A stretch of DNA of 64,000 bases, taken from assembly GCA_029555415.1 (NCBI GenBank), contig JAKPSI010000119.1, positions 124,001-188,000 of the forward strand, in the 5' to 3' direction. A model generated the notes under the pieces. That model ran no database searches, had not been told where the DNA came from, and worked only from the letters and a program-made list of their open reading frames with translations. This stretch comes from Bacteroidota bacterium. Its GTDB lineage: Bacteria > Bacteroidota > Bacteroidia > Chitinophagales > Chitinophagaceae. Shown here piece by piece: positions 40,973 through 56,290 of this stretch; position 1 is the stretch's first letter, and every line of letters begins with the position of its first letter. The position numbers and the translations under genes were made by a program.

Positions 40973-41141
40973 ACTGTTGAACGCATCTTGTATAGTTCAG
41001 CAGAAATTAGAATAAAACGCCGCAGGAAATACTTTTTTAGTTTATACACTTCGTTCGCGACGGCGAAGTCTGCCCTGATCAGTTCATCACAGAAACTTCG
41101 GGAAATATTTGGGTGCAGGCCTGTGCACTCAATAAAAACTA

Positions 41142-41219
41142 CCCGCTTTAGTAAGCCTCCCGAAACAATATCTCCGTGCCTCCCTGCCTACCGGCAGGCA
41201 GGCGTGGTTAAATAAAAAA
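41142..41219 (+). repeat. 78-bp direct repeat, copy 1, with nested palindrome
   Basis: 78 bp that recur at 41363-41440: CCCGCT, then ATATCTCCGTG, then a 20-bp palindrome (CCTGCCTACCGGCAGGCAGG, one mismatch, 41183-41202), then CGTGGTTAAATAAAAAA. The palindrome looks inserted into a CTCCGTG...GTGGTTAAAT unit. Between the two direct repeats lies the second 94-bp element. Confidence 0.8.
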
Positions 41220-41318: not shown

Positions 41319-41362
41319 ATGTGTGACTGCAACGCAGGCACCCGTGACCTCCATAAGGTCTT

Positions 41363-41440
41363 CCCGCTATAGTCCCCCTCCGGAAAAAATATCTCCGTGT
41401 CTCCCTGCCTGCCGGCAGGCAGGCGTGGTTAAATAAAAAA
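41363..41440 (+). repeat. 78-bp direct repeat, copy 2, with perfect 20-bp palindrome
   Basis: Matches 41142-41219; here the palindrome CCTGCCTGCCGGCAGGCAGG (41404-41423) is perfect. It ends 27 bases before the stop of the VanZ-like gene. The whole interval 40768-41467 contains repeats but no gene. Confidence 0.82.
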
Positions 41441-41467: not shown

Positions 41468-41884
41468 TTAATACTCAATACTGGTCTTACTTTTCGCAAT
41501 CTGTAGTTTGCCAAACACAATATAAGAAGCGATCAACCCCACCGAAGAAAAGAGAATATCATTGAAATCAAAGGTCCTGCCGAATACCGGTATGAGCTGC
41601 AGGTACTCATTCACGACCAGCATACCAAAGCCCAGGATGCAGACCAGGCGCAGGTCATACACATTCTCTAACCGGAAGATCCTTGCCAGCATATAGTTAC
41701 GGCCACTGAAGAACCAGTAGGCACCGAAGGGGATCAGGAAGGAGCCGAAGAGGTTGGGGGCGATGCCCAGGAAGAAGCTGCCCGGCTCATCGAGCAGGTG
41801 CAGGGGACGAATGATGAATTTGATGGCCCAGATCAACAACGTGCCGGCTATCACTGACCATTTACTGATTTGCTTTAATTCCAT
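41468..41884 (-). CDS. VanZ-like membrane protein
   Basis: A 138-residue membrane protein with four hydrophobic segments (ATG 41884; an extension to 41929 is possible). The C-terminal part VNEYLQLIPVFGRTFDFNDI followed by LFSSVGLIASY fits the VanZ-like pattern (E-x-x-Q, GR-x-FD-x-xD, G). VanZ relatives confer low-level glycopeptide resistance, but most members have unknown roles. Followed on the same strand by repeats only. Confidence 0.65.
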   Translation of the reverse strand: MELKQISKWSVIAGTLLIWAIKFIIRPLHLLDEPGSFFLGIAPNLFGSFLIPFGAYWFFSGRNYMLARIFRLENVYDLRLVCILGFGMLVVNEYLQLIPVFGRTFDFNDILFSSVGLIASYIVFGKLQIAKSKTSIEY

Positions 41885-43145: not shown

Positions 43146-43715
43146 ATGTACTATTTCTGGAAAATATGGTGGAAGCTCACGGGCTGGAAGCTCAAAGGTG
43201 AATTCCCGCGGCAGTTACCCAAAATGGTGCTGGCTGTTGCGCCCCATACCAGCTGGCATGATTTCCCCATAGGTATCGCCGCCCGTAGTCTGGTCCGTGC
43301 CGGCAAGATCCGTTTCCTGGGTAAAAAAGAGCTGTTCGATGGCCCCTTTGGCTGGATGTTCCGTGCCCTGGGAGGCACACCGGTGGACCGTTTCAGCAAT
43401 AAGGGCATGGTGGAGCAGGTGGCGGATCTGTTCAGATCGAATGATGAATTCAAGATCGCGATGGCGCCGGAGGGTACACGCAAACAGGTCACCAAACTCA
43501 GGACCGGTTTCTACCAGATCGCTTTACAGGCCAGGGTACCTATAGTCATGGTCGGACTTGATTTCGGCAGCAAGCAGGTCTGTTTCTCCGAGCCCTTTGA
43601 TCCTACCGGTGATGAAGAAAAAGACATGCAGCATATCATCCGCTTCTTCGCAGGCATGCGGGGGAAGTATCCGGAACAGGGGGTGGGGCATTTGGTGGAT
43701 AGTAATAATGTATAA
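43146..43715 (+). CDS. Lysophospholipid acyltransferase family protein
   Basis: A 189-residue member of the PlsC/lysophospholipid acyltransferase family. Motif I is PHTSWHDFP (in place of the usual His-x4-Asp), motif III is MAPEGTRKQVTKLRTG (PEGTR), and the fold includes VPIVMVGLDFGSKQVCFSEP. Such enzymes acylate glycerophosphate or other lipids. Its last ~50 bases (43647-43694) are repeated downstream at 44575 and 50680 as part of gene remnants, while this copy is intact. The S51 gene starts 18 bases after its stop. Confidence 0.88.
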   Translation: MYYFWKIWWKLTGWKLKGEFPRQLPKMVLAVAPHTSWHDFPIGIAARSLVRAGKIRFLGKKELFDGPFGWMFRALGGTPVDRFSNKGMVEQVADLFRSNDEFKIAMAPEGTRKQVTKLRTGFYQIALQARVPIVMVGLDFGSKQVCFSEPFDPTGDEEKDMQHIIRFFAGMRGKYPEQGVGHLVDSNNV

Positions 43716-43732
43716 CTGTTAAACCAATTGAA

Positions 43733-44521
43733 ATGAATCGCAGGGATTTTATCAAAACAACCTCTACGGCAGTACCAGTGATTTCACTGCCCTTGTTGAA
43801 TGAAATAAAAATGAATCCAGCAGTTCCTGTAAGAAAACTATTTGTTTATGGAGGTGAATTTGACAGGGTATTCATTAAATATGCCGCTTCGTTAACAGGA
43901 AAACAGCATCCAAAGATCTGTTTCCTGCCTACAGCCGCAGGTGATGCACCTGGCTATATTGTGCGGTGGTTTGAGAGCTGTGCAGGTCTACCCGTTGCGC
44001 CTTATGTTCAGCGATCCTTCATCTCCTCATACAATCAGAAAGAGTCATTCGAAGATATCTTTTTGAGTATGGATGTCATTTTAGTGGGAGGGGGAAACAC
44101 TTTGAATTTGATGGCCATCTGGAAAGCACAGGGGATGGATATGGCATTACGAAAAGCATATGAATCAGGGGTGGTGCTGGGAGGCGGGAGTGCAGGATCT
44201 CTTTGCTGGTTCGAGCAGGGGACTACTGATTCCCGACCCGCAAAATTGTCCACGGTAGAGGGCTTAGGTTTTATCCAGGCCAGTCATAGTCCGCATTACG
44301 ATGGAGAAGCGCAACGAAGGCCCCTTTATATCTCCAAGATAAAGAGTGGTGAATATAAACCAGGATATGCTTGTGATAATGGCGCAGGGATATATTTTGG
44401 GAATGAAGCCGTCAAACAAGTTGTTTCGCTTGACCAAAAAAGCAACGCCTATTTTGTGGGTATGTCCGAAGGGGAAGTTAAAGAAACGGTGCTTCAGAAA
44501 ATTGTACTGCCCTCTTCCTGA
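43733..44521 (+). CDS. S51 family serine peptidase / cyanophycinase-like, with signal
   Basis: A 262-residue protein with an RR-containing N-terminus (MNRRDFIKTTSTAVP) resembling a Tat signal, followed by a glutamine-amidotransferase-like (peptidase S51) fold: ILVGGGNTLNLMAIW, then VVLGGGSAGSLCWFEQG with the nucleophilic Ser and SHSPHYDGE as possible His-containing site. S51 enzymes include peptidase E (aspartyl dipeptidase) and cyanophycinase. No partner gene indicates the substrate. GC is lower than the core and it follows an acyltransferase tail, consistent with insertion. Confidence 0.82.
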   Translation: MNRRDFIKTTSTAVPVISLPLLNEIKMNPAVPVRKLFVYGGEFDRVFIKYAASLTGKQHPKICFLPTAAGDAPGYIVRWFESCAGLPVAPYVQRSFISSYNQKESFEDIFLSMDVILVGGGNTLNLMAIWKAQGMDMALRKAYESGVVLGGGSAGSLCWFEQGTTDSRPAKLSTVEGLGFIQASHSPHYDGEAQRRPLYISKIKSGEYKPGYACDNGAGIYFGNEAVKQVVSLDQKSNAYFVGMSEGEVKETVLQKIVLPSS

Positions 44522-44541
44522 CAGTAGCATGGCTCGTCAAT

Positions 44542-44637
44542 GAAGTGGCTGATATGCAAACGACCTTCCGCATCTTCGCGGGCATGCGGGGGAAATATCC
44601 GGAGCAGGGGGTGGGGCATTTGGTGAGGGAAGATTAA
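44542..44637 (+). pseudogene. Remnant of the acyltransferase 3' end (copy B)
   Basis: A frame ending in TAA reads EVADMQTTFRIFAGMRGKYP then EQGVGHLVRED, matching the last ~32 residues of the acyltransferase at 43146 (DMQHIIRFFAGMRGKYPEQG). The 48-bp stretch 44575-44622 has three mismatches against 43647-43694. No upstream part of the gene exists. The rest of 44638-44864 is AT-rich and shows nothing recognisable. Confidence 0.8.
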
Positions 44638-44864
44638 TGTTCAGGTTTTTAAGAACTTCCTATTGCTGTACCTGCAATTGAAAAGGCAAATTTGCCAGGC
44701 CTCAAATGCCAATACATGGACACTATGAACTAATAATTTTAATAGTGTATATTATAGTGTTGGATGCAAGACACAGAGCCCGCACCCTAATAACAGGCAA
44801 CCATTTCAGAGGTTTCATTTTAAGTTAGTTTAACATAACTATACAGTAAATCAATACATACAGA

Positions 44865-45584
44865 ATGAAACCAGACCGAACTATCTTTCAAAAAAGTCAT
44901 ATATTTTTTGCTGCATTTTTTCTGCTAATGCTTGCAGGCTTCTGGTTGACATATTTCACAAAAATATCAGACCAGGAAAACTATCGTATGCATGTACATG
45001 GTGTAACACTAATATTATGGTGTACACTTTTAATATCTCAAGCGTATTTAATAAGAATAAAACGATACGCGCTTCATAAGCGGTTAGGCAAGCTATCTTA
45101 TGTGATAGTCCCGCTAATTGCATTTACAACCATTGACCTCTATAAATACCGGTTAAGTGAGCTTACAATATTAAGCACAAGAGACTACTTGTTTACAGCC
45201 TCGGTTTTAATTGCTCTTCTTACTTTTTTGATCTTTTATGGACTTGCAATTTATTATAAAAACAAGCCGGCAATTCATGCACGATATATCATCTGTACCG
45301 TTTTTCCCATGTTCACAGCTGTTTTCGACCGCATCATTGACTCCTATTTTCCTTTTCTGTTACCTTATTTTCCGGACGTAGAGGGGCCTGTTGCTCAGGC
45401 TTTCGGGTTAACCTTAGGTGATATCTGCTTATTCGCTTTATGCATCTGGGACTGGCGTTCGCATAAGCGCATATACGTCTTTCCCATTGCTTTGATCATT
45501 CATCTTATCTATCATTTTTCAGTTCTGTATTTTTATAAATTTGAATTTTGGAGATCGTTTTGTAATTGGTTCTTTCATTTGTGA
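44865..45584 (+). CDS. Seven-TM hypothetical membrane protein
   Basis: A 239-residue protein with about seven hydrophobic helices (near residues 14, 47, 78, 108, 140, 185 and 208 onward). YRMHVHGVTLILWCTLLISQ and YALHKRLGKLSYVIVPL carry conserved His residues in loops. I cannot name the family with confidence; it resembles unassigned Bacteroidota membrane proteins. AT-rich and non-native in composition; probably accessory DNA, following the second acyltransferase tail. Confidence 0.6.
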   Translation: MKPDRTIFQKSHIFFAAFFLLMLAGFWLTYFTKISDQENYRMHVHGVTLILWCTLLISQAYLIRIKRYALHKRLGKLSYVIVPLIAFTTIDLYKYRLSELTILSTRDYLFTASVLIALLTFLIFYGLAIYYKNKPAIHARYIICTVFPMFTAVFDRIIDSYFPFLLPYFPDVEGPVAQAFGLTLGDICLFALCIWDWRSHKRIYVFPIALIIHLIYHFSVLYFYKFEFWRSFCNWFFHL

Positions 45585-45684
45585 AGGAATGAAGTATTAA
45601 AGAATACCAGCACAGCAGAAAGCCTTCTCTCGCATATCATTTACTCGAGCAGTAAAACTATCTGGAAGACTAAACAAATTCAAA

Positions 45685-46221
45685 ATGAAAAAATATATAC
45701 TGGCGCTTTGGGTTGTTATTATTTTAATTTCATGTAATGGTCAATTAAACAAATCGAGGATTGAAATTAACCCGGATCATATCAGGCGAGAAGCGATCAA
45801 AATGACAGATTTTTTAACAGAAAGAAACTGTGATTCTTTCATTGCATTTCAGTATCCCAAAATTATTGAAATGTTCGGAGGCAGGCAAAAGGCTTTTCTT
45901 GCAATTACCAAAAGTTGGAAAAATCATGATGCGGATAGTCTAAAGATCACGAGAATCACAATTGGTGAACCGACGAAAGTTATTAGCTATAAAGATGAAC
46001 TTCAATGTACAATCCCCCAAAACGTTGTGATTAAGAGTCCTAAAGTTTCGATAAGTGTAAAGTCAACATTGATCGCCATTTCAAAGGATGGGGGAAATAG
46101 ATGGTATTTTATAGATGCGGTTGGAGATAATATTAAAAACATAAGATCGACTTTCCCAAATATCAGCAAAGAGCTAGTGATCCCGGAACAAACAAAGCCT
46201 GAAGTTATTAATGAGCTATGA
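45685..46221 (+). CDS. Hypothetical lipoprotein
   Basis: A 178-residue protein with a lipoprotein signal (MKKYILALWVVIILISCNGQ, lipobox Cys 17). The rest is alpha+beta with FIAFQYPKIIEMFGGRQKAF and a C-terminal half (WYFIDAVGDNIKNIRSTFPN) reminiscent of unassigned DUF-type periplasmic domains. AT-rich, in the same orientation as the membrane gene 100 bases upstream. No recognised family. Confidence 0.6.
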   Translation: MKKYILALWVVIILISCNGQLNKSRIEINPDHIRREAIKMTDFLTERNCDSFIAFQYPKIIEMFGGRQKAFLAITKSWKNHDADSLKITRITIGEPTKVISYKDELQCTIPQNVVIKSPKVSISVKSTLIAISKDGGNRWYFIDAVGDNIKNIRSTFPNISKELVIPEQTKPEVINEL

Positions 46222-46354
46222 TCTCTTTACAACGATCGGTTCCATACTCATCTTCTCCATTTGGGCAATCATAGCCTTTACGGGAAAAAGAAAGTATTTC
46301 AGGATCTTAAGGATGCCGGGAGATCATTCATCCAGATCCAGCGAAATAAGTTGA
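46211..46354 (+). CDS. Putative small or truncated membrane protein, 47 residues
   Basis: An ATG frame that overlaps the stop of the lipoprotein gene by 11 bases (a coupled-gene arrangement) and encodes MSYDLFTTIGSILIFSIWAI plus IAFTGKRKYF..., a clear N-terminal membrane helix followed by a basic segment. It runs 31 bases into the end of the oppositely oriented LuxR gene. The membrane helix plus abrupt end suggests a gene cut off where this accessory block joins older DNA. It may be a chance frame. Confidence 0.35.
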   Translation: MSYDLFTTIGSILIFSIWAIIAFTGKRKYFRILRMPGDHSSRSSEIS

Positions 46355-46959
46355 TACGCCGCTGCGATCCGTATCAGCTCCGCCGTATTCCGCGCATTGA
46401 GTTTACTCAGCAGATTCTTCCGGTGTGTATCGATGGTTGTGGTGCTCAGAAATATCTTCTGCGCGATCTCGGGATTGGTCAGCCCCCTTGCCACCAGCTC
46501 CAGCACTTCCTTTTCCCGCGCGGTGATCACCGGTTTCTTCTTCTCCGGATTTTCACGGATCAGTGTCGCCACCTGCTCACTGAGATAGACCTTGCCCTGC
46601 ATCACCTGCCTGATCGCATCTTTCAGTTCCTGGCGCGTTGCGTTCTTCAGCACATAACCGGAAGCGCCGTATTCCAGCATCTTGCGGACATAAGTCTCCT
46701 GGTTGAAAGTACTCAGGCCGATGATGAAGATGCCGGGATATGTTTTTTTGATCTCCTTGCAAAGGTCGATCCCGTTGATATCCGGCAAATTGATATCCAG
46801 CAGGATCACATCCGGTTGCTGCTGATGCAGGAAAGCCAGGCAGGACGCGCCATTGGACGCATGGCCCACCCAATCGATCTCTTCATCACTTTGTAAAAGC
46901 GACCGGATCCCTTCAATGACCATGTAGTGGTCGTCAACAATGAATAAACTTACTTTCAT
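46324..46959 (-). CDS. LuxR/NarL family response regulator
   Basis: A 211-residue response regulator. Receiver domain with phospho-acceptor Asp in VILLDINLPDING and the VDDH acidic pocket at residues 8-11; C-terminal LuxR HTH in VITAREKEVLELVARGLTNP with EIAQKIFLSTTTIDTHRKNL. Its cognate kinase is the gene immediately upstream on the same strand: the regulator's ATG directly follows the kinase's TAA stop. It would bind inverted repeats; one candidate lies in the divergent region at 48979. Confidence 0.95.
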   Translation of the reverse strand: MKVSLFIVDDHYMVIEGIRSLLQSDEEIDWVGHASNGASCLAFLHQQQPDVILLDINLPDINGIDLCKEIKKTYPGIFIIGLSTFNQETYVRKMLEYGASGYVLKNATRQELKDAIRQVMQGKVYLSEQVATLIRENPEKKKPVITAREKEVLELVARGLTNPEIAQKIFLSTTTIDTHRKNLLSKLNARNTAELIRIAAAYQLISLDLDE

Positions 46960-48927
46960 TTATACAGGTACTTCAATTTGAACAGATGTGCCTTTGCCGG
47001 CAGTGGAACGTATATCCAGCTTCCCTTTCATGTAACCGATGCGGCTCCGGATATTGAGCCAGCCCGCACCACCCTGATTCGCCGGATCCTCCGCATTGAA
47101 TCCCTTGCCATCATCTTCAACGGTCAGCGTCATGCCGCCCTCATCATAACTGATCTGAACAATGGCTTCTCTTGCACCCGCATGGCGCAGGATATTGCTG
47201 ATCAGTTCCTGCACGATCCTGTAAAGATTGATCGCGGTGGTTTGCGCGATCGTTTTTCCATCGAGGTTGAGCGACTGATAACTGATTTGCACCACACCTG
47301 AACGGTTGATGTCATTACAGAAATCCTGCAATGCCTTGTCCAGACCGAATTTCAGCAATACCTCCGGCATCATATTGTGCGCCACCCGCCTCAGTTCACT
47401 GATCGAACTGTCCAGCATATCCACGCTTCTTTCAAAAGCCTGCTGGTTCTCCGGCGTCATCACCAGGTTTTCTTTCATATGCTGGAATGAAAATTTAATG
47501 CCCGACAGCATGCCCCCGAGTCCATCATGAAGGTCCTTGGCAAGTCGTGTGCGTTCCTGCTCTTCCCCTTTCATCACCGCTTCCGCCGCGGAAAGTTGTT
47601 GCTCGGTCTCCAGTTCCTGGATCCTCTGCTGTTGTAATTTCTGATACTGTTTGTTATTCCGGTAGGCCAGGACCGAGATCAGGATCACGGCAAGGATACC
47701 CGTTGCGAGTAAGATATTGAGCAGGTTCTTTTGCCGGATCGAATACGCCTGGATCTGCTGCTTATTCTCAAGCTCCCGGATCTTCATTTCATTTTTCTCT
47801 TTCCCGTAACGGGTTTCCATTTCCTGCGTATTGCGGTTAAGCTCTTCATTCAGTAATGAATCGGCCACGATATCGCCCTGCTTCCGGTAACTTTCATAAG
47901 CATTGAGATCATGCTGCGCCAGCGCGATATCCGAAAGTAACAGGAGAATATCCCTGACACGTGCGGTCATACTATTCTCCCTGGCGAGACTCAAGGCCTG
48001 TGCACCGAAACGCCTGGCTTCCTCATACTGTTGCTGATGCATTTTCGCGATAGCCAGTCCGAACAGACTTTCCGCTTGTCCGTCCTGATCGTTGAATTGC
48101 TGCGCCAGCTTGTACGCTTCGTTGCAAAGGGGTGCGATCTTATCATACTGACCGGAAAGTTTATACGCGCCTGCAAGATTCAGTAGGACGGATTCCCTGA
48201 GTTTGACATTTTGTGTGGTCGTACTGATCGCCAGTGCTTCCTGTAATAACGGGAATGCTTTTTCCGGAGTTTTGAGACTGTTATAATGGATCGCCAGGTT
48301 ATTCAGGGCCATGCCCAGCTGTGGTGTCAGGCCCGCTTCCCGCGCCTGTTTCACGGCCTGCTCTCCATAAGTGATCGCTTCTTTGTAGCGATGCATATTC
48401 TCATATAACACCTGCAGAGCATCACTGCATTGTTCCGCATACTGGTCGTTATGCCTGAGCGCGAAGATCCGCTGCGCTTCAATGTACAATCCGGTCGCTT
48501 CTTCATAACGGCCTCCGTACACACAGGCGTTGGCGGTATTGAAGATGGCTTTGGATAAATTGAGACTGTCATTCATCCGGCGCGCCAGCAGGATCCCTTC
48601 TTTATTCAATTGATAGGAGGAATCGAAACGGCCCTGCACATTCAGGACATAGGTGTAGTTGAATATGTACTTGATGATGCCGGTCTGATATCCGATCGAA
48701 CGGCTGAGATCACCCGCCTTTTTATACCAGCTTTTGGCCGTTTCGGGCTGATCGTTCTCATATTGCTGGCCAATGCTGATGTACAGCATGGCAGCCGCAG
48801 AATCCTTCCCCGCCTGCTTTTCAAGCCGGAGCAGACTGTCCCGGTTCAGGATATCCTGGCCCCGCACCGAACCAGCCAGTATAACCATCAGCAGTACACT
48901 AAGAAAGGACCGTCTCATATATTTCAT
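46960..48927 (-). CDS. TPR-containing sensor histidine kinase (HisKA_3 type)
   Basis: A 655-residue membrane sensor kinase. Signal peptide, then a periplasmic array of TPR-like helices (about residues 30-370; repeated patterns such as ALNNLAIHYNSLKTPEKAFP), one transmembrane helix (LLNILLATGILAVILISVLA), and a cytoplasmic coiled coil leading to the HisKA_3 domain with KDLHDGLGGMLSGIKFSFQH, where the His is phosphorylated, and an ATPase domain ending in VEDDGKGFNAEDPANQGG. I start at ATG 48927; an in-frame TTG at 48945 is less likely. Typical of Bacteroidota two-component systems. Partner: the LuxR regulator. Confidence 0.93.
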   Translation of the reverse strand: MKYMRRSFLSVLLMVILAGSVRGQDILNRDSLLRLEKQAGKDSAAAMLYISIGQQYENDQPETAKSWYKKAGDLSRSIGYQTGIIKYIFNYTYVLNVQGRFDSSYQLNKEGILLARRMNDSLNLSKAIFNTANACVYGGRYEEATGLYIEAQRIFALRHNDQYAEQCSDALQVLYENMHRYKEAITYGEQAVKQAREAGLTPQLGMALNNLAIHYNSLKTPEKAFPLLQEALAISTTTQNVKLRESVLLNLAGAYKLSGQYDKIAPLCNEAYKLAQQFNDQDGQAESLFGLAIAKMHQQQYEEARRFGAQALSLARENSMTARVRDILLLLSDIALAQHDLNAYESYRKQGDIVADSLLNEELNRNTQEMETRYGKEKNEMKIRELENKQQIQAYSIRQKNLLNILLATGILAVILISVLAYRNNKQYQKLQQQRIQELETEQQLSAAEAVMKGEEQERTRLAKDLHDGLGGMLSGIKFSFQHMKENLVMTPENQQAFERSVDMLDSSISELRRVAHNMMPEVLLKFGLDKALQDFCNDINRSGVVQISYQSLNLDGKTIAQTTAINLYRIVQELISNILRHAGAREAIVQISYDEGGMTLTVEDDGKGFNAEDPANQGGAGWLNIRSRIGYMKGKLDIRSTAGKGTSVQIEVPV

Positions 48928-48978
48928 GGGCTGTATAATACTCAAATATCATGATCTGTACGACGAAGCGCCTCCACC

Positions 48979-49019
48979 AAAACCATGATTTTCGTCAAAA
49001 AAATGAAATTCATGGTTTT
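48979..49019. promoter_or_regulatory. 10-bp inverted repeat in the divergent kinase/secreted-protein promoter
   Basis: AAAACCATGA (48979-48988) pairs perfectly with TCATGGTTTT (49010-49019). It lies between the kinase start and the gene at 49071, whose -7-like box TATTTTTG is at 49048-49055. Spacing of about 21 bases between arms suits a dimeric regulator or hairpin. A LuxR-type regulator site is plausible but unproven. Confidence 0.45.
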
Positions 49020-49070
49020 AGGGGAAGACCTGAGCGGCAGCAGCGGATATTTTTGGATAAAATCAGGCAC

Positions 49071-50456
49071 ATGAAAAAAAGCTGGCTGTATCTCTTATTG
49101 GCATTGATGGTCTCCGGTAAAATCTCCGCACAGGCCGAAACATTTGACATCTACCAGTACACCGCTCCGAAAGAGTGGGTGAAGCAGGCGGGTTCCGGAA
49201 CCATGGCTTTTACCTTATCGGATGATAAGAAGAACACTTTCGCCATGATCGTGCTCTACAGCAGCCGGAAAAGTGAGGGCAGTGCGCAGAAGGATTTTGA
49301 CAAGAGCTGGGATATCGTTTCAAAAAGCACCGGCATTACCACGGCGCCACAGATGCAGGCCCCGGAAACAGATAAAGGTTGGACATCACTGACCGGAGTA
49401 ACAACTTATGTAGCAGATAAAGCCACCGCGGCGATCGTACTCAGTTCTTTCACCGGATCCGGCAAATGCGGCACCGTATTGGTTTCATTCAATGATGCCG
49501 GTTATCAGGCCGCGATCGAAGCGTTCCTGAACAGCCTGGACCTGAATGCGAATGCCGCTCCGGTAACAACACAGAATAATAATACTACAACAACTACTAC
49601 TACTGCATCATCAACAGCAGGGGGCATTAGTTATACCGTTCCGCGAGGCTGGACTGAAACCAAAAACGCGAATGGAAGCGTGTCCATAGCTTCACCCTTA
49701 TTGGAGTGCCGGGAAAACAGCTATTACACCATTCATTATCTCGGCAGCTCTGTATATAACGGCAGCTTACAGGAATATGCCGCGAACCTGCACAAGTCTT
49801 ATTTCTATGAAGGTGCCAATGCACCGACACAGTATATGTCCGGCGACAAAAACATCTCGAAGGGTTATGACAATGACGGACGTGAATATCTGTCATTTGC
49901 CACCTCGGCGCATTTGTTCGATAAGGACCGCTGCTATCATTATGGCATGGTGTACCTGCTGCGGACCGGGGATCAGATGGCTGTTTTCCTGGTCGAACTG
50001 AGACCCGTTAACAGCAATAAAGAAGGAATACCGGGGTGGGGAAATTTTCTGAGTGATTGTAACGCCCTGCGTTCAGCCTGGAGCCGTTTTCTTAGTGCGG
50101 TAAAATTCAATAAACCCGGAAAACCGCTCGGGACGCTGCCGGAAGAGCTTTTCGGCAACTGGGAAAGCCGCGTCATCCTCGGGGCTACCTACTTTGGCTT
50201 CATTGATTCCCGGATCATGGAACGCTATCATTTCATGGAAGACGGCCGTTATCAATCCCAGAAAATGCTGGCCGGCAATAACTACGGCAAATACCAGGTT
50301 ACCGGTAACAAACTCACCATCACCGATGCATCGGGCAAGAGCAGCAGCTACCGTTTCAGGCTTGAATCCGTATTTGAATACGGAAGCTGGAAACGAGAAC
50401 TGACGCTGCTGGATGCGAATGGGAAGGAGGTGACGTTGCGGTATGATGGGGAGTAA
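49071..50456 (+). CDS. Secreted protein with duplicated PsbP/DUF1795-like domains
   Basis: A 461-residue exported protein (signal peptide to about residue 21, ISAQ). Two related beta-rich modules are visible: one beginning YTAPKEWVKQAGSGTM (about residues 30-160) and one beginning YTVPRGWTETKNANGSVSIA (about 190-340), joined by a Thr/Asn-rich linker (about 163-186). A third C-terminal beta module (GNWESRVILGATYFGFIDSR) follows, lipocalin-like. Function unknown. It is divergent from the two-component operon, making it the prime candidate target of that system. Confidence 0.68.
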   Translation: MKKSWLYLLLALMVSGKISAQAETFDIYQYTAPKEWVKQAGSGTMAFTLSDDKKNTFAMIVLYSSRKSEGSAQKDFDKSWDIVSKSTGITTAPQMQAPETDKGWTSLTGVTTYVADKATAAIVLSSFTGSGKCGTVLVSFNDAGYQAAIEAFLNSLDLNANAAPVTTQNNNTTTTTTTASSTAGGISYTVPRGWTETKNANGSVSIASPLLECRENSYYTIHYLGSSVYNGSLQEYAANLHKSYFYEGANAPTQYMSGDKNISKGYDNDGREYLSFATSAHLFDKDRCYHYGMVYLLRTGDQMAVFLVELRPVNSNKEGIPGWGNFLSDCNALRSAWSRFLSAVKFNKPGKPLGTLPEELFGNWESRVILGATYFGFIDSRIMERYHFMEDGRYQSQKMLAGNNYGKYQVTGNKLTITDASGKSSSYRFRLESVFEYGSWKRELTLLDANGKEVTLRYDGE

Positions 50457-50489
50457 AATACCTCGCTAAATTTCATATCTTACTTAGGG

Positions 50490-50736
50490 TTCCCCAGGCG
50501 CATGGAGTTATGCGCAAGCGTGTGGAGAAACCAGGGATCAGGGTTTCCCAGATAGGTTCGTATTTCACGTTCCGATCATCATATTGAGACTTGATTTCGG
50601 CAGCAAACAGGTCTGTTTCTCCGAGCCTTTCTATCTCACCGGTGAAGAAGAGAAGGACATGCAGCAAATCATCCGCTTCTTCGCAGGCATGCGGGGGAAG
50701 TATCCGGAACAGGGGGTGGGGCATTTGATGATGTAA
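50490..50736 (+). pseudogene. Degenerate acyltransferase remnant (copy C)
   Basis: The last ~150 bases are nearly identical to 43557-43700 of the intact acyltransferase gene (LDFGSKQVCFSEP; TGEEEKDMQQIIRFFAGMRG; then KYPEQGVGHLMM and stop). Further upstream the match becomes weak but can be traced (RKRVEKP resembling RKQVTKL). The reading frame is broken. The 48-bp unit 50680-50727 is identical to 43647-43694. It directly precedes the AT-rich helicase gene. Confidence 0.82.
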
Positions 50737-50909
50737 ACGTAACCGGCTGAGTATTTTTCCTTCAAATTCCTTTTTGAAGTGCCATCTTTCAATTTGAATG
50801 GGTGGTTGCACACAGTTTACGAATAGCGTAAATTAGAGTGTAATCAAGGACTCTTTTACTAACATTCAACAGTCAATTGAGAAGCATTTGTTCTAAAGGC
50901 ATAAAAACA

Positions 50910-53576
50910 ATGAAGGTTGTTTTACAAGTTCTCCTTTTAGTTTTACTGATCATTTCAGGTGTTTGGTTATATCGCAAATACCAGCAAAACCTTCTTAAGA
51001 AAAAGGAAATTGAAGAGGCGGAAGAGAAGGAGCGGGAAGAAATCCGTCAACAATTATATGATTTTATTAAGTCAAAACTTAACAAAATCAGAATAGCAAA
51101 AAATGAATTTTCAAATTACTTAGATCATGATTCCGGTTACTTCGCAAACTATCAGCTAGAACAATGGAAACGGCAGTATTTAAGCCTATTTTCTGAGATT
51201 GAAGGTACAACATACGAATACCTTCCGTTTTCTTCAGATGAATTGAAAGACATCAAAGAATTTATAGCATTTTATCAAACTGGTGAAAATCTACGATTAG
51301 AGTCAACCATTTCTTTTGTAGATGCTGAATTAAAATCATACAGTAGTTTTTTTGATAATATTGAAGGCAGGAAACTGGATCATCAACAGCGAAAAGCAAT
51401 TATTACAGATGAAGACAATAACATTGTTATTGCAGGCGCTGGTTCTGGAAAAACAACTACAATTGTTGGCAAAGTAAACTATGTAATTGATCGATATAAG
51501 GTAAACCCTGAAGAGATCCTGCTTATTTCATTCACCAATAAATCGGCTGCTACACTAGCAAGCAGGATTAATATTAAAGGCGTAGACGCAAAAACATTTC
51601 ACAAACTAGGTAAAGACATCATTGCTGAAAGCGAAGCGAAGCAGCCTAGTATTTTCGACGAAAACCAATTTAAACCACTTTTGACAAAGTGCTTTAAAGA
51701 ACTCCTTGCCGATAAACTGTATTTGAAACAGGTAACAACATACTTCACGGAGTATATGAAACCAGTGAAGTCACAATTTGAGTTTGATAATCAAGGCGAT
51801 TATATTCAATATATCAAAGACAAGAATTTTCGTACTTATAAAACGAAGGAGGTTACAACTAGAGAAAGAACAACATACAAGATGGAAGTTGTTAAAAGTA
51901 TTGAAGAGTGTAAAATTGCAAATTTTCTCCTTTTCAATGGAATTGAATATGAATATGAGTTTCCTTATGAATTTGATACAGCAAATGAGGCTTTCAGGCA
52001 ATACAAACCTGATTTTACAATTAAACAAAATGACAAGATTTTTTACTTAGAACATTTGGCCGTATCCAGGGACGGAAGTGTACCAAAATTCTTTACAAAA
52101 GAACGCGAAACACAAGAAGAAGCTAAATCCAGATATTGGGAAAAGATTTTTTGGTCAAGAGATCTTCACCAAGCTAACAAAACAATACTTATTGAAACGT
52201 TTAGTTATGAAATGAGTGAAGGGGTTTTATTTGACAACCTCACTTTAAGTTTGAAGGCAGCAGGCATAACGATCCAGCCTAAATCACCCGAAGAAGTTTG
52301 GCAAATAATTAATAACGCAGCACAAGACGAAATAAACACCCTTATTGCATTGATAGGAACTTTCATAACCCTTCTTAAATCAAATAATTACACTTTAGAT
52401 TATATACGCTCAAAGAACACAGAAACGCAAGACCGTTTTTCCCGAGAAAGAAGTTCCTTGTTCATGGATATCTGTACCCCGGTCTTTGATCGCTATGAAA
52501 ACTATTTACGCGACAGGGGTGAGATCGATTTCAGTGATATGATCAACAAAGCCACAAACCTGGTTTACAAGAAGAAGCACAACCGAAAATACAGCTACAT
52601 CATCATTGATGAGTTTCAGGACATCTCCATTGGTCGATATCAGCTTGTTAAATCGCTCAAAACCAATAATCCCGCCTGCAAAATTTTTGCTGTTGGAGAT
52701 GATTGGCAATCAATTTATAGATTTAGTGGAAGCGATATCGCTTTGTTCAAAGATTTTGAGAAATACTTTGGATACACGGTTAGGTCGAAAATAGAAACGA
52801 CCTATCGTTTTCACGAACCGTTGATCAGGCTTTCAAGCGATTTTATCCTGAAAAACCCTAATCAAACAATGAAGGAATTGAAGGGGGTGTCAGCGGAAAA
52901 AAAAACAAGCTACAAGATTCAATATTCAACTTCCGATAATCAGGACGACAGCATTGCGGTTCAAATTATTTTCAATGAAATACTATCAAAACATGATGGA
53001 GGTACAGAAAAGGAGGTTTATATACTTGGACGATATGGTTTTGATATTGACCGAATCAAGAACTTAAGCGGCGCATTTTTAATAGACAGAGCAAGTGAAT
53101 CGATCTCTTATAGCATAAAAACACAAAACGGTGTAATTAAGCGTTTGAAGGCGCAATTTATGACCATACATAAGGCTAAGGGCCTGGAAGCAGATATCGT
53201 AATTGTCTTGAACTGCAATTCTGGTAAACTCGGTTTCCCTTCTGAGTTATCGGATGACAGTGTTTTAAATTTACTTTTAAGTGATGCCGACCAATTTGAA
53301 AATGGTGAAGAAAGAAGATTGTTTTATGTTGCTATGACAAGAGCAAGAGAGTTGGTTTACTTTGTGACAGATAGCTCATTTAAGTCAAAATTCATATCTG
53401 AAATTGAAGCAGAAAGCTTGCAGTCTCCCAATAAAAAGTGTCCGCAGTGCAGATCGGCAGACCTGGTCTTGAGAAAATCCGGTATTGCAAAAAATGGAAA
53501 TACTTACAAGTTATTTGGTTGTTCGAATTATCTATATGGGTGTGATTTCACGACGACAGAATGGATAAATAATTGA
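50910..53576 (+). CDS. Membrane-anchored UvrD/Rep-type helicase with a zinc-finger tail
   Basis: An 888-residue superfamily 1 helicase. Residues 1-20 form a transmembrane helix (VLLLVLLIISGVWLY); a charged coiled coil follows (about 28-60). Walker A is IVIAGAGSGKTTTI (about 173-186), Walker B IIIDEFQDIS, and VGDDWQSIYRFSGSD and AMTRARELVYF are motifs III/VI-like. An insert between motifs contains GIEYEYEFPYEF and YKPDFTIKQNDKIFYLEHLA, reminiscent of a nuclease fold (PD-(D/E)xK-like; inference). The C-terminus has CPQCRSADLVL...FGCSNYLYGCDFTT, a topoisomerase-type C4 zinc finger. Start at ATG 50910; a TTG at 50877 is an alternative. Strongly AT-rich, alien to the core. Confidence 0.85.
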   Translation: MKVVLQVLLLVLLIISGVWLYRKYQQNLLKKKEIEEAEEKEREEIRQQLYDFIKSKLNKIRIAKNEFSNYLDHDSGYFANYQLEQWKRQYLSLFSEIEGTTYEYLPFSSDELKDIKEFIAFYQTGENLRLESTISFVDAELKSYSSFFDNIEGRKLDHQQRKAIITDEDNNIVIAGAGSGKTTTIVGKVNYVIDRYKVNPEEILLISFTNKSAATLASRINIKGVDAKTFHKLGKDIIAESEAKQPSIFDENQFKPLLTKCFKELLADKLYLKQVTTYFTEYMKPVKSQFEFDNQGDYIQYIKDKNFRTYKTKEVTTRERTTYKMEVVKSIEECKIANFLLFNGIEYEYEFPYEFDTANEAFRQYKPDFTIKQNDKIFYLEHLAVSRDGSVPKFFTKERETQEEAKSRYWEKIFWSRDLHQANKTILIETFSYEMSEGVLFDNLTLSLKAAGITIQPKSPEEVWQIINNAAQDEINTLIALIGTFITLLKSNNYTLDYIRSKNTETQDRFSRERSSLFMDICTPVFDRYENYLRDRGEIDFSDMINKATNLVYKKKHNRKYSYIIIDEFQDISIGRYQLVKSLKTNNPACKIFAVGDDWQSIYRFSGSDIALFKDFEKYFGYTVRSKIETTYRFHEPLIRLSSDFILKNPNQTMKELKGVSAEKKTSYKIQYSTSDNQDDSIAVQIIFNEILSKHDGGTEKEVYILGRYGFDIDRIKNLSGAFLIDRASESISYSIKTQNGVIKRLKAQFMTIHKAKGLEADIVIVLNCNSGKLGFPSELSDDSVLNLLLSDADQFENGEERRLFYVAMTRARELVYFVTDSSFKSKFISEIEAESLQSPNKKCPQCRSADLVLRKSGIAKNGNTYKLFGCSNYLYGCDFTTTEWINN

Positions 53577-54099: not shown

Positions 54100-55002
54100 A
54101 TGAATAAAATATCTAACATTACAAGAAGAGACATCTTTGATACAATAACTATTGAAGGTCTTAGTTGGAATGGCCGATTGGAAGAAACAGACTTTCTTTC
54201 TCGGCTTTATGATCTTAGTAAAATTCCATCAACAGATAGTAGGTTTAAGGACGCAAACGGTGACATTTGGCAGCATAGAGTAAATAATAACGATTGGGAC
54301 GAAAATTGGATTTTCTCAGACGAGAGATTTAATCTAATTCACTGTGACGACGCTACTTTCTTACAATTCCTATGTGAAATGCTTCATCCAATAGTTAGGA
54401 GCGACACAACTCAAGTTACAAGGCTTCATCAAATGTTCAATGAGTATTTATCTAAGGACAATTTTGAGTTGGTTGAAAAAACAAGAATTTCAGAAAGACC
54501 AATTTTTATTGGTCGTTATAAGATTCTAGGTAAAGCGACAATTCAAAAATCAAAGAAAGAAATTGAAGATTATCTATCGGATGAGTATGTAGTAAAGCAA
54601 ATTAATATTATGGAAAGTGCTATTGAGAATTCGCCAGAATTAGCAATTGGCACAGCAAAAGAACTTATTGAAACAATTTGCCATACTATTTTAACCGAAA
54701 GAAAAGTTGAAACGGATAAAAATTGGGACTTACTTCAATTATTAAAACAAACCACAAAACAGCTTAATTTAACACCAGAGGGTATCCCGGATGAAGCTAA
54801 AGCATCAAAGACAATTAAAAGTATTTTGGGTAGCTTGACAACAGTGGTTCAAGGTATTGGTGAGTTAAGAAATCAATATGGTAGCGGACACGGGAAAAAA
54901 GCTACTTTCAAGGGACTTACTTCAAGACATGCAAAACTATCGGTTGGCGCTGCTTCAACTCTTGCAATTTTTCTTTTAGAAACACATAAGACAAGACTTT
55001 AA
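54100..55002 (+). CDS. AbiJ-type abortive infection protein with HEPN domain
   Basis: A 300-residue protein in two parts. Residues 1-140 match the AbiJ N-terminal domain type 3 (ITRRDIFDTITIEGLSWNGR; LPSTDSRF-like IPSTDSRFKDANGDIWQHRV; HPIVRSDTTQ). Residues about 170-300 are the Abi_C domain, a HEPN-type helical domain: ELIETICHTIL, then GELRNQYGSGHGKK with Arg257 and His264 in the R-x6-H RNase motif, and HAKLSVGAASTLAIFLLETH. HEPN toxins of this kind are thought to degrade RNA when phage infection is sensed. AT-rich. It is 1 base upstream of the next gene, so the two are coupled. Confidence 0.85.
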   Translation: MNKISNITRRDIFDTITIEGLSWNGRLEETDFLSRLYDLSKIPSTDSRFKDANGDIWQHRVNNNDWDENWIFSDERFNLIHCDDATFLQFLCEMLHPIVRSDTTQVTRLHQMFNEYLSKDNFELVEKTRISERPIFIGRYKILGKATIQKSKKEIEDYLSDEYVVKQINIMESAIENSPELAIGTAKELIETICHTILTERKVETDKNWDLLQLLKQTTKQLNLTPEGIPDEAKASKTIKSILGSLTTVVQGIGELRNQYGSGHGKKATFKGLTSRHAKLSVGAASTLAIFLLETHKTRL

Positions 55003-55003
55003 A

Positions 55004-55810
55004 ATGAATAATGCATTAAATAAAAACTATTTAGAGCACAATGTATTTAGACAATTATCTGAATATGCAGAATTCTATCGTTCCTTATCTAACTCTACAA
55101 TGGGCTGGATTTCACAAGGATCAGGTTCGGGAATAAATATTGATACTTACGTTTTTTCTTCAATGCAAGGAACTTTGGAATCGATTCACGATATTTTATT
55201 TAAGGGGCGCATTAATGATTCTTATGCTTTACTTAGGAAGTACTATGATTCAACAATTATAAATATATATTCTAATCTCTATTTGAACGACAACTTCAGT
55301 ATTGACAACTTCATAGTTGATAAAATAAATCATTGGGTTAAAGGAAAAGAAACGATTCCAAGCTTTGGAATAATGTCGGAATATATTATAAAGTCACAAA
55401 AAGTAGCGGAAATAACACAATTGATTTATAAAAACGGGGCTTTCAAAGGTAGTTCATTTGAAGAGCTAAGAAAAAGATGTAATGACCACACTCACTATCT
55501 TTATTACCATAATTTAATCTTAAATGACAACGAACTATACTTGCAAAATAGGCTGTCTACTCTTGATAGTTTTTCTACTGATCTAAAGGACATATTCATT
55601 TTGCATTTATCATACTTATTCTATTTAAACGATCATTACATGATGTCGAGTGATTATATCGACAGTTTGGATTGTGGGCTGACACCAGAAGAAGATTCAC
55701 AATATTGGGTTGCACCATTCATTCAAAAGGCATTTGACAACATTATTAAAGCAAACCGTCCAGAGATAGCTGAAATAATAAAGGGCAAAACTGCAATGAA
55801 ACTTGAATAA
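55004..55810 (+). CDS. Hypothetical protein coupled to the AbiJ-type gene; HEPN-like motif
   Basis: A 268-residue helical protein with no family I can name. Its ATG follows the AbiJ stop by one base, a classical coupled pair. Near residue 158-164 the segment RKRCNDHTHYLYYHN contains R-x5-H with an Asn two residues after the Arg, resembling the HEPN RNase motif; otherwise the protein is rich in Tyr/Asn/Asp with SYALLRKYYDSTIINIYSNL and SQYWVAPFIQKAFDNI. It may be a second HEPN-like effector, an antitoxin, or a sensor. Strongly AT-rich like its neighbour. The function is not assigned. Confidence 0.62.
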   Translation: MNNALNKNYLEHNVFRQLSEYAEFYRSLSNSTMGWISQGSGSGINIDTYVFSSMQGTLESIHDILFKGRINDSYALLRKYYDSTIINIYSNLYLNDNFSIDNFIVDKINHWVKGKETIPSFGIMSEYIIKSQKVAEITQLIYKNGAFKGSSFEELRKRCNDHTHYLYYHNLILNDNELYLQNRLSTLDSFSTDLKDIFILHLSYLFYLNDHYMMSSDYIDSLDCGLTPEEDSQYWVAPFIQKAFDNIIKANRPEIAEIIKGKTAMKLE

Positions 55811-56011: not shown

Positions 56012-56290
56012 ATGCCTCATAACCCCCTCCCCGAACTGAACAACATAGGCATTGTCGTCCAATCACTGGACGATGCCATTGCCTTCTTCACTGAGATCGG
56101 ACTGACCCTGGAAGGGCGGACCATGGTTGAGGGTGAATGTGCAGGACGCGTGACTGGACTGGGAGATCAGTCGGTGGAGATCGCCATGATGGTAACGCCT
56201 GACGGGCACAGCCGGCTGGAGCTTTCCAGATTCATCAGACCGGCCACTATCGAAGATCACCGGACAAGCAGGAATAGGGCTGTGCTCTGA
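56012..56290 (+). pseudogene. Truncated VOC (glyoxalase-like) protein
   Basis: A 92-residue N-terminal half of a VOC protein: LNNIGIVVQSLDDAIAFFTE and HSRLELSRFIRPATIEDHRT are the first module, but the frame stops at RNRAVL just after the DHRT point, where full-length relatives (about 140 residues) continue into a second module. GC content is core-like. It marks the right border of the accessory block. It may have been cut off by recombination. Confidence 0.7.

Follow-up and report, generated by a model that had tools for sequence, protein, structure and literature searches.

Three copies of an acyltransferase gene 3′ end with accessory DNA between and behind them in a Chitinophagaceae genome

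In a 64,000-nucleotide stretch of contig JAKPSI010000119.1 (the window), part of a 3.97-Mb (3,973,488 bases), 139-contig draft genome of the Chitinophagaceae, the 3′ end of an acyltransferase gene (AcT) occurs three times, and only the first copy belongs to an intact gene. The most likely explanation, which we favour tentatively, is that the two later copies are remnants of extra AcT copies that were split by accessory DNA and whose tip was partly homogenised. Copies 2 and 3 would be the 3′ remnants of former extra AcT genes, either tandem paralogues or alleles of close relatives, standing beside the survivor, and accessory DNA entering between the copies would have replaced their 5′ parts. 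It probably entered there because direct AcT repeats offer a foothold for RecA-type, that is ordinary homologous, recombination, and later gene conversion or crossover between the copies may have re-homogenised their 3′ tips.

Three copies of the AcT 3′ end

43146-43715, plus strand: AcT, an intact PlsC-like acyltransferase of 189 aa (Pfam PF01553, E = 4.4e-15; TIGR00530, E = 4.6e-13, under its cut-off)
43635-43694, plus strand: copy 1, the 60-bp 3′ tip of AcT, identical in copy 3 by sequence comparison
44542-44637, plus strand: copy 2, what is left of an AcT 3′ end, secure across 44567-44625 and weak upstream of that, continuing in frame as far as a stop codon at 44635-44637
50470-50736, plus strand: copy 3, a 5′-eroded AcT remnant, clear from ~50569 and probable before that, stop codon at 50734-50736

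The original prediction for this DNA had reported that the last 48 bp of AcT (43647-43694) recur exactly at 50680-50727 and with three mismatches at 44575-44622. Both matches held when the sequences were compared again, and the exact run shared by copies 1 and 3 exceeds what was then noted, being 60 bp long (43635-43694 = 50668-50727). Copy 3 is 88% identical to AcT across 162 bp. A DNA search of the whole genome aligned copies 1 and 3 at 92% over 143 bp and made copy 2 secure across 59 bp (44567-44625, 93%); used with AcT to look for the unit elsewhere in the genome, it returned AcT and copies 2 and 3 only. Two pieces of 20-22 bp, allowed up to three mismatches, were likewise found in the window at these three places only, where 0 matches were expected. 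Both later copies lie downstream of AcT on the same strand, and their upstream gene parts are absent or degraded, as first described: copy 3 is eroded at its 5′ side with at least 160 bp left, and copy 2 retains 60-90 bp. The clear match of copy 3 begins with VPIIILRLDFGSK in the AcT frame, where AcT itself has VPIVMVGLDFGSK. The similarity to AcT probably continues upstream of position 50569, as an extension anchored there scored 15.6, a value reached by 0 of 150 mononucleotide shuffles (largest 13.9).

The way in which the copies differ points to coding ancestors. Copies 1 and 3 differ at 18 of 159 nt, with 13 of the 18 differences at third codon positions (p = 0.0009), and all three differences in the tip of copy 2 are third-position and synonymous. 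Divergence in a coding manner, as expected of decayed tandem paralogues, is thus found in copy 3 and in the tip of copy 2, and from this third-position bias it follows that the pieces derive from once-coding AcT genes. The differences are also unevenly spread. None of the 18 falls within the terminal 60 nt (P = 0.0001 under a uniform distribution), and counted by segment, copies 1 and 3 mismatch at 8/19, 1/38, 9/42 and 0/60 positions, a mosaic as expected of conversion. In copy 2, 13 mismatches in the 33 bases before the tip stand against 3/48 in the tip (Fisher p = 0.0004), although this contrast may reflect no more than the end of the homology. Identity that is patchy and peaks at the 3′ tip suggests recombination or gene conversion, and from the alignments we conclude that in copy 3 the tip was probably preserved or homogenised at a later time than the other parts. 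The best matches of the 3′ part of AcT in the DNA of relatives reach 68% across 150 bp, or 71-72% across stretches of 83-91 bp. Since copies 1 and 3 are far more alike than this, the copies would have arisen within this lineage or in a congener.

Relatives and the frequency of such loci

The comparison genomes belong mainly to the same family, and among all those available the genome studied here is the sole representative of its genus. AcT matches (E <= 1e-8) were found in 83 of 394 family genomes, own genome included. Six of these relatives (G109, G168, G186, G317, G370 and G413) have a second match, in each case a diverged paralogue of full length at another place in the genome, and no piece of the size of copy 3 is among the matches of the 83 genomes at this threshold, which pieces as short as copy 2 would escape. 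The original prediction had proposed a search of related genomes for variable cargo behind the same unit. This was answered in part: the two genomes with the best AcT matches (G026 and G340), neither of them a congener, have a single AcT with other genes downstream. Both retain the left-flank genes, namely GH25 and the open reading frames (ORFs) at 41468 and 41951, with two additional ORFs between GH25 and AcT in G340, and their right flanks are unlike that of the window and unlike each other. Directly behind AcT in G340 is a UvrD-family helicase gene on the opposite strand, 28-29% identical to parts of the helicase of the window, which we take to be an ordinary PcrA-type gene. A tandem AcT pair is present in G053, a genome of the same taxonomic order, and a full-length tandem gene pair (80%) occurs elsewhere in the present genome, on contig C32.

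To judge how common such an arrangement is, repeats were sampled on five contigs, the AcT locus included (476,694 of 3,973,488 bases, 12%; dust filter on, pairs within 20 kb). Among the 48 repeat matches, only those of AcT connect the 3′ terminus of a complete gene with orphan pieces kilobases away on the same strand. Of the others, those that fall in the last fifth of an ORF of at least 120 aa comprise adjacent full-length paralogues, one inverted pair of 44 bp and two further pairs, one of 43 bp at a distance of 112 bp and one of 42 bp at a distance of 120 bp, the latter also contained in a longer ORF. The AcT locus is therefore unusual within this 12% of the genome, a sample that is small and contains the locus itself. 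Dispersed intergenic repeats of another kind, ~50-230 bp long, in both orientations and kilobases apart, were seen on contig C32 (11768-39538 and 62752-79067). Just upstream of the AcT locus is a 100-bp direct repeat (41120-41219 and 41341-41440, 84%) with a CCTGCCTGCCGGCAGGCAGG-like palindrome, and this motif resembles one in a repeat on contig C32.

Several observations weigh against decayed extra copies. Two duplications and two truncations are required in addition to conversion. No second AcT-like piece better than E = 1.0 and no full-length AcT array was found at the locus in 20 relatives and in L034, whose contig stops ~200 bp behind AcT, and no congener is among them. Both truncated copies keep only the 3′ end and have the same orientation, which would also result from integration at the 3′ end of a gene. 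The similarity of copy 2 upstream of its tip (from ~44542) is not significant alone (score 11.6 against a 95th percentile of 13.4), so that its homology may end near the tip. For copy 3, a free local alignment of 50457-50568 scored 20.7, which lies above the 95th percentile of 500 shuffles (17.8) but still within their range (maximum 28.3).

Accessory genes between and behind the copies

43733-44521, plus strand: peptidase S51 family protein (PF03575, E = 2.5e-32)
44865-45584, plus strand: AT-rich membrane protein, no family above cut-off
45685-46221, plus strand: AT-rich small lipoprotein-like gene, no family
46324-46959, minus strand: LuxR-type response regulator (domain match)
46960-48945, minus strand: tetratricopeptide repeat (TPR) histidine kinase (HisKA_3 domain match)
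49071-50456, plus strand: exported protein with sub-threshold PsbP/lipocalin-like matches
50877-53576, plus strand: AT-rich UvrD-family helicase; best NCBIfam match DNA helicase IV, under cut-off; best PADLOC match GajB
54100-55002, plus strand: AbiJ-type protein (AbiJ_NTD3 and Abi_C; domain and PADLOC matches)

The S51 segment fits snugly between the first two copies. Its DNA (43712-44529) is 74% identical to that of another family member, G085, and this G085-like segment begins at the AcT stop codon and ends ~12 bases short of where copy 2 can first be traced. That the S51 gene nearly abuts copy 2 would be explained by one-sided or illegitimate joins. Published work exists on homology-facilitated illegitimate recombination; a literature search on flanking recombination and on tandem-paralogue conversion returned nothing specific, and we make no claim that such loci are unpublished. 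The N-terminus of the S51 protein, MNRRDFIK, is one that we take to be twin-arginine-like.

Accessory cargo had been proposed to follow each copy, and this stands for the patchily distributed S51 and helicase genes, with relatives in 10 of 195 (E <= 1e-20) and 3 of 191 (E <= 1e-60) family genomes, respectively, own genome included in both counts. It does not stand for the whole of the second interval, which is not solely AT-rich cargo. Its AT-rich part (44865-46221) has a GC content of 0.35-0.36, and the membrane protein encoded there was found in 22 of 191 genomes (E <= 1e-8, own included); the part with the regulator, kinase and exported protein (46324-50456) has an ordinary GC content of 0.50-0.51. 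Such kinases adjoin such exported proteins in several relatives (e.g., G117, G192, G007 and G106), and in three genomes that also have AcT (G026, G122 and G182) the kinase and exported-protein genes lie on a different contig from AcT. Behind the third copy, a 268-aa ORF begins 1 bp after the AbiJ-type gene (the two span 54100-55810); it has no Pfam, NCBIfam or PADLOC match and could be a partner. A short glyoxalase-like ORF (56012-56290, 92 aa, under the Pfam cut-off), maybe truncated, follows the AbiJ block.

Alternative explanations and known systems

A possible but less likely history is stepwise capture, in which circular or element DNA with a diverged fragment of the AcT 3′ end would have joined the resident tip by a Campbell-type RecA crossover, leaving each time an intact AcT, the cargo and then a truncated AcT copy. 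An identical 60 bp flanked on both sides by divergent DNA is what a crossover inside it leaves, the S51 segment is closely framed by AcT and copy 2, and the cargo blocks are unlike in composition and distribution. However, DNA from different sources would each need an AcT fragment of this lineage, and AcT was not found in the 20 kb around the S51 gene of G085.

We consider it unlikely that the locus arose by tandem accretion of degraded integrative elements, cis-mobilizable element (CIME)-like or e14/icd-like, with the AcT 3′ end as bacterial attachment site (attB) and the integrases since lost. Direct repeats of a gene 3′ end do border accessory DNA here, with the intact gene at the left, as in integrative and conjugative elements (ICEs), integrative and mobilizable elements (IMEs), prophages and CIMEs. 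At ~162 bp, copy 3 has nearly the length of the 163-bp icd remnant of e14 (PMC6379469), and a stretch close to its 5′ edge, the place expected for an e14-like crossover, is nearly identical (37/38). Against this, the exact run is longest at the 3′ edge, and the similarity to AcT probably extends upstream of that 38-bp stretch. Accretion was weighted up slightly, and decayed extra copies and stepwise capture down, since the upstream similarity of copy 3 is weakened by the free local test and the 38-bp stretch is e14-like.

The integrase gene that the original prediction suggested looking for was not found: no recombinase is among the cargo proteins scanned, and six-frame searches of the whole genome gave no PF00589 or PF00239 match there (transposase families were not searched). 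A recombinase inside the element, expected of ICEs, IMEs and prophages and absent from CIMEs by definition, is thus missing from these proteins. The genome has three PF00589 matches, two on other contigs, which are presumably Xer proteins, and one on this contig, and a single PF00239 match on another contig. The one tyrosine recombinase of this contig (C23:59458-60648) lies 107 kb from the locus, just behind a tRNA-Asn gene. Because of that position it would have a site of its own, and we rejected it as an integrase acting in trans. A tRNA target was also rejected, there being no tRNA in the window. The recombinase region itself (C23:59224-60648, L108/L109), where the 397-aa protein behind tRNA-Asn is followed by two short ORFs on the opposite strand, could be a tRNA-anchored island. 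In viral contigs, an exact-pattern scan gave 0 matches, and 0 of the 16 pattern stretches from a protein search encode a relative. Folding as single-stranded DNA revealed no strong dyad in the unit. The original prediction had left successive integrations and a broken tandem array side by side. The patchy cargo agrees with such a picture, but the tandem array fits slightly better, as copies 2 and 3 diverge from AcT in a coding-like way and copy 3 extends far beyond the tip; for integration, no recombinase was found in the cargo scanned, and the unit lacks a strong dyad.

It is rather doubtful that the AcT 3′ tip serves as a recombinase-free capture module, behind which unrelated accessory genes would repeatedly enter by recombination within its 60 bp and so build a slow, cassette-like array on a housekeeping gene. 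An assembly artefact in part, in which the 60-bp exact repeat would have let copies 1 and 3 exchange their right flanks, is still less probable: the flank order does rest on the assembly of a 139-contig draft, but each of the three copies has left and right flanks of its own, whatever their order. Least probable of all is a function of the AcT tail as a 3′ element (a terminator or RNA-stability tag) gained by the plus-strand genes AcT, S51 and exported protein. Copies 2 and 3 do lie close behind plus-strand stop codons, copy 1 is the end of AcT itself, and of four folds computed for single-stranded DNA one is borderline (z = -1.80; 10/200 shuffles fold as well), but the differences have a coding-type bias and nothing stands out in the remaining three folds (z = -0.66, 0.78 and -0.25).

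Among known systems, the e14 prophage in icd of E. coli K-12 duplicates the 163-bp icd 3′ end and leaves the icdC remnant (PMC6379469, PMC4444293). The AcT locus shares with it a duplicated protein-gene 3′ end, with the intact gene on one side and a displaced remnant on the other (PMC6379469, PMC4444293). Unlike e14/icd, it has no prophage or integrase among what was found, two remnants, its longest exact run at the 3′ tip, and in copy 3 a similarity that probably continues upstream. Elements are known to accrete in tandem at a gene end (PMC5704250), and several accessory blocks bordered by gene-end copies are a likeness to such CIME/ICESt1-type accretion (PMC5704250); unlike there, no recombination genes were found at the AcT locus. 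SGI1-type islands integrate at the trmE 3′ end (PMC8409611, PMC6531882), which likewise makes the 3′ end of a protein gene the site, but no island integrase was found at AcT. As for its length, copy 3 exceeds the typical size of a bare attachment (att) core.

Decayed tandem paralogues kept alike by conversion resemble the locus in coding-like divergence, truncated copies and patchy identity, and differ in that accessory cargo fills the gaps here and a full-length array was not seen in the loci compared. If the repeats seed insertions, decayed extra AcT copies would make the locus a small natural example of a duplicated housekeeping gene collecting accessory and defence-related genes without an integrase; if they do not, it is another scar of gene duplication and decay. 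The locus is unusual yet familiar in kind.

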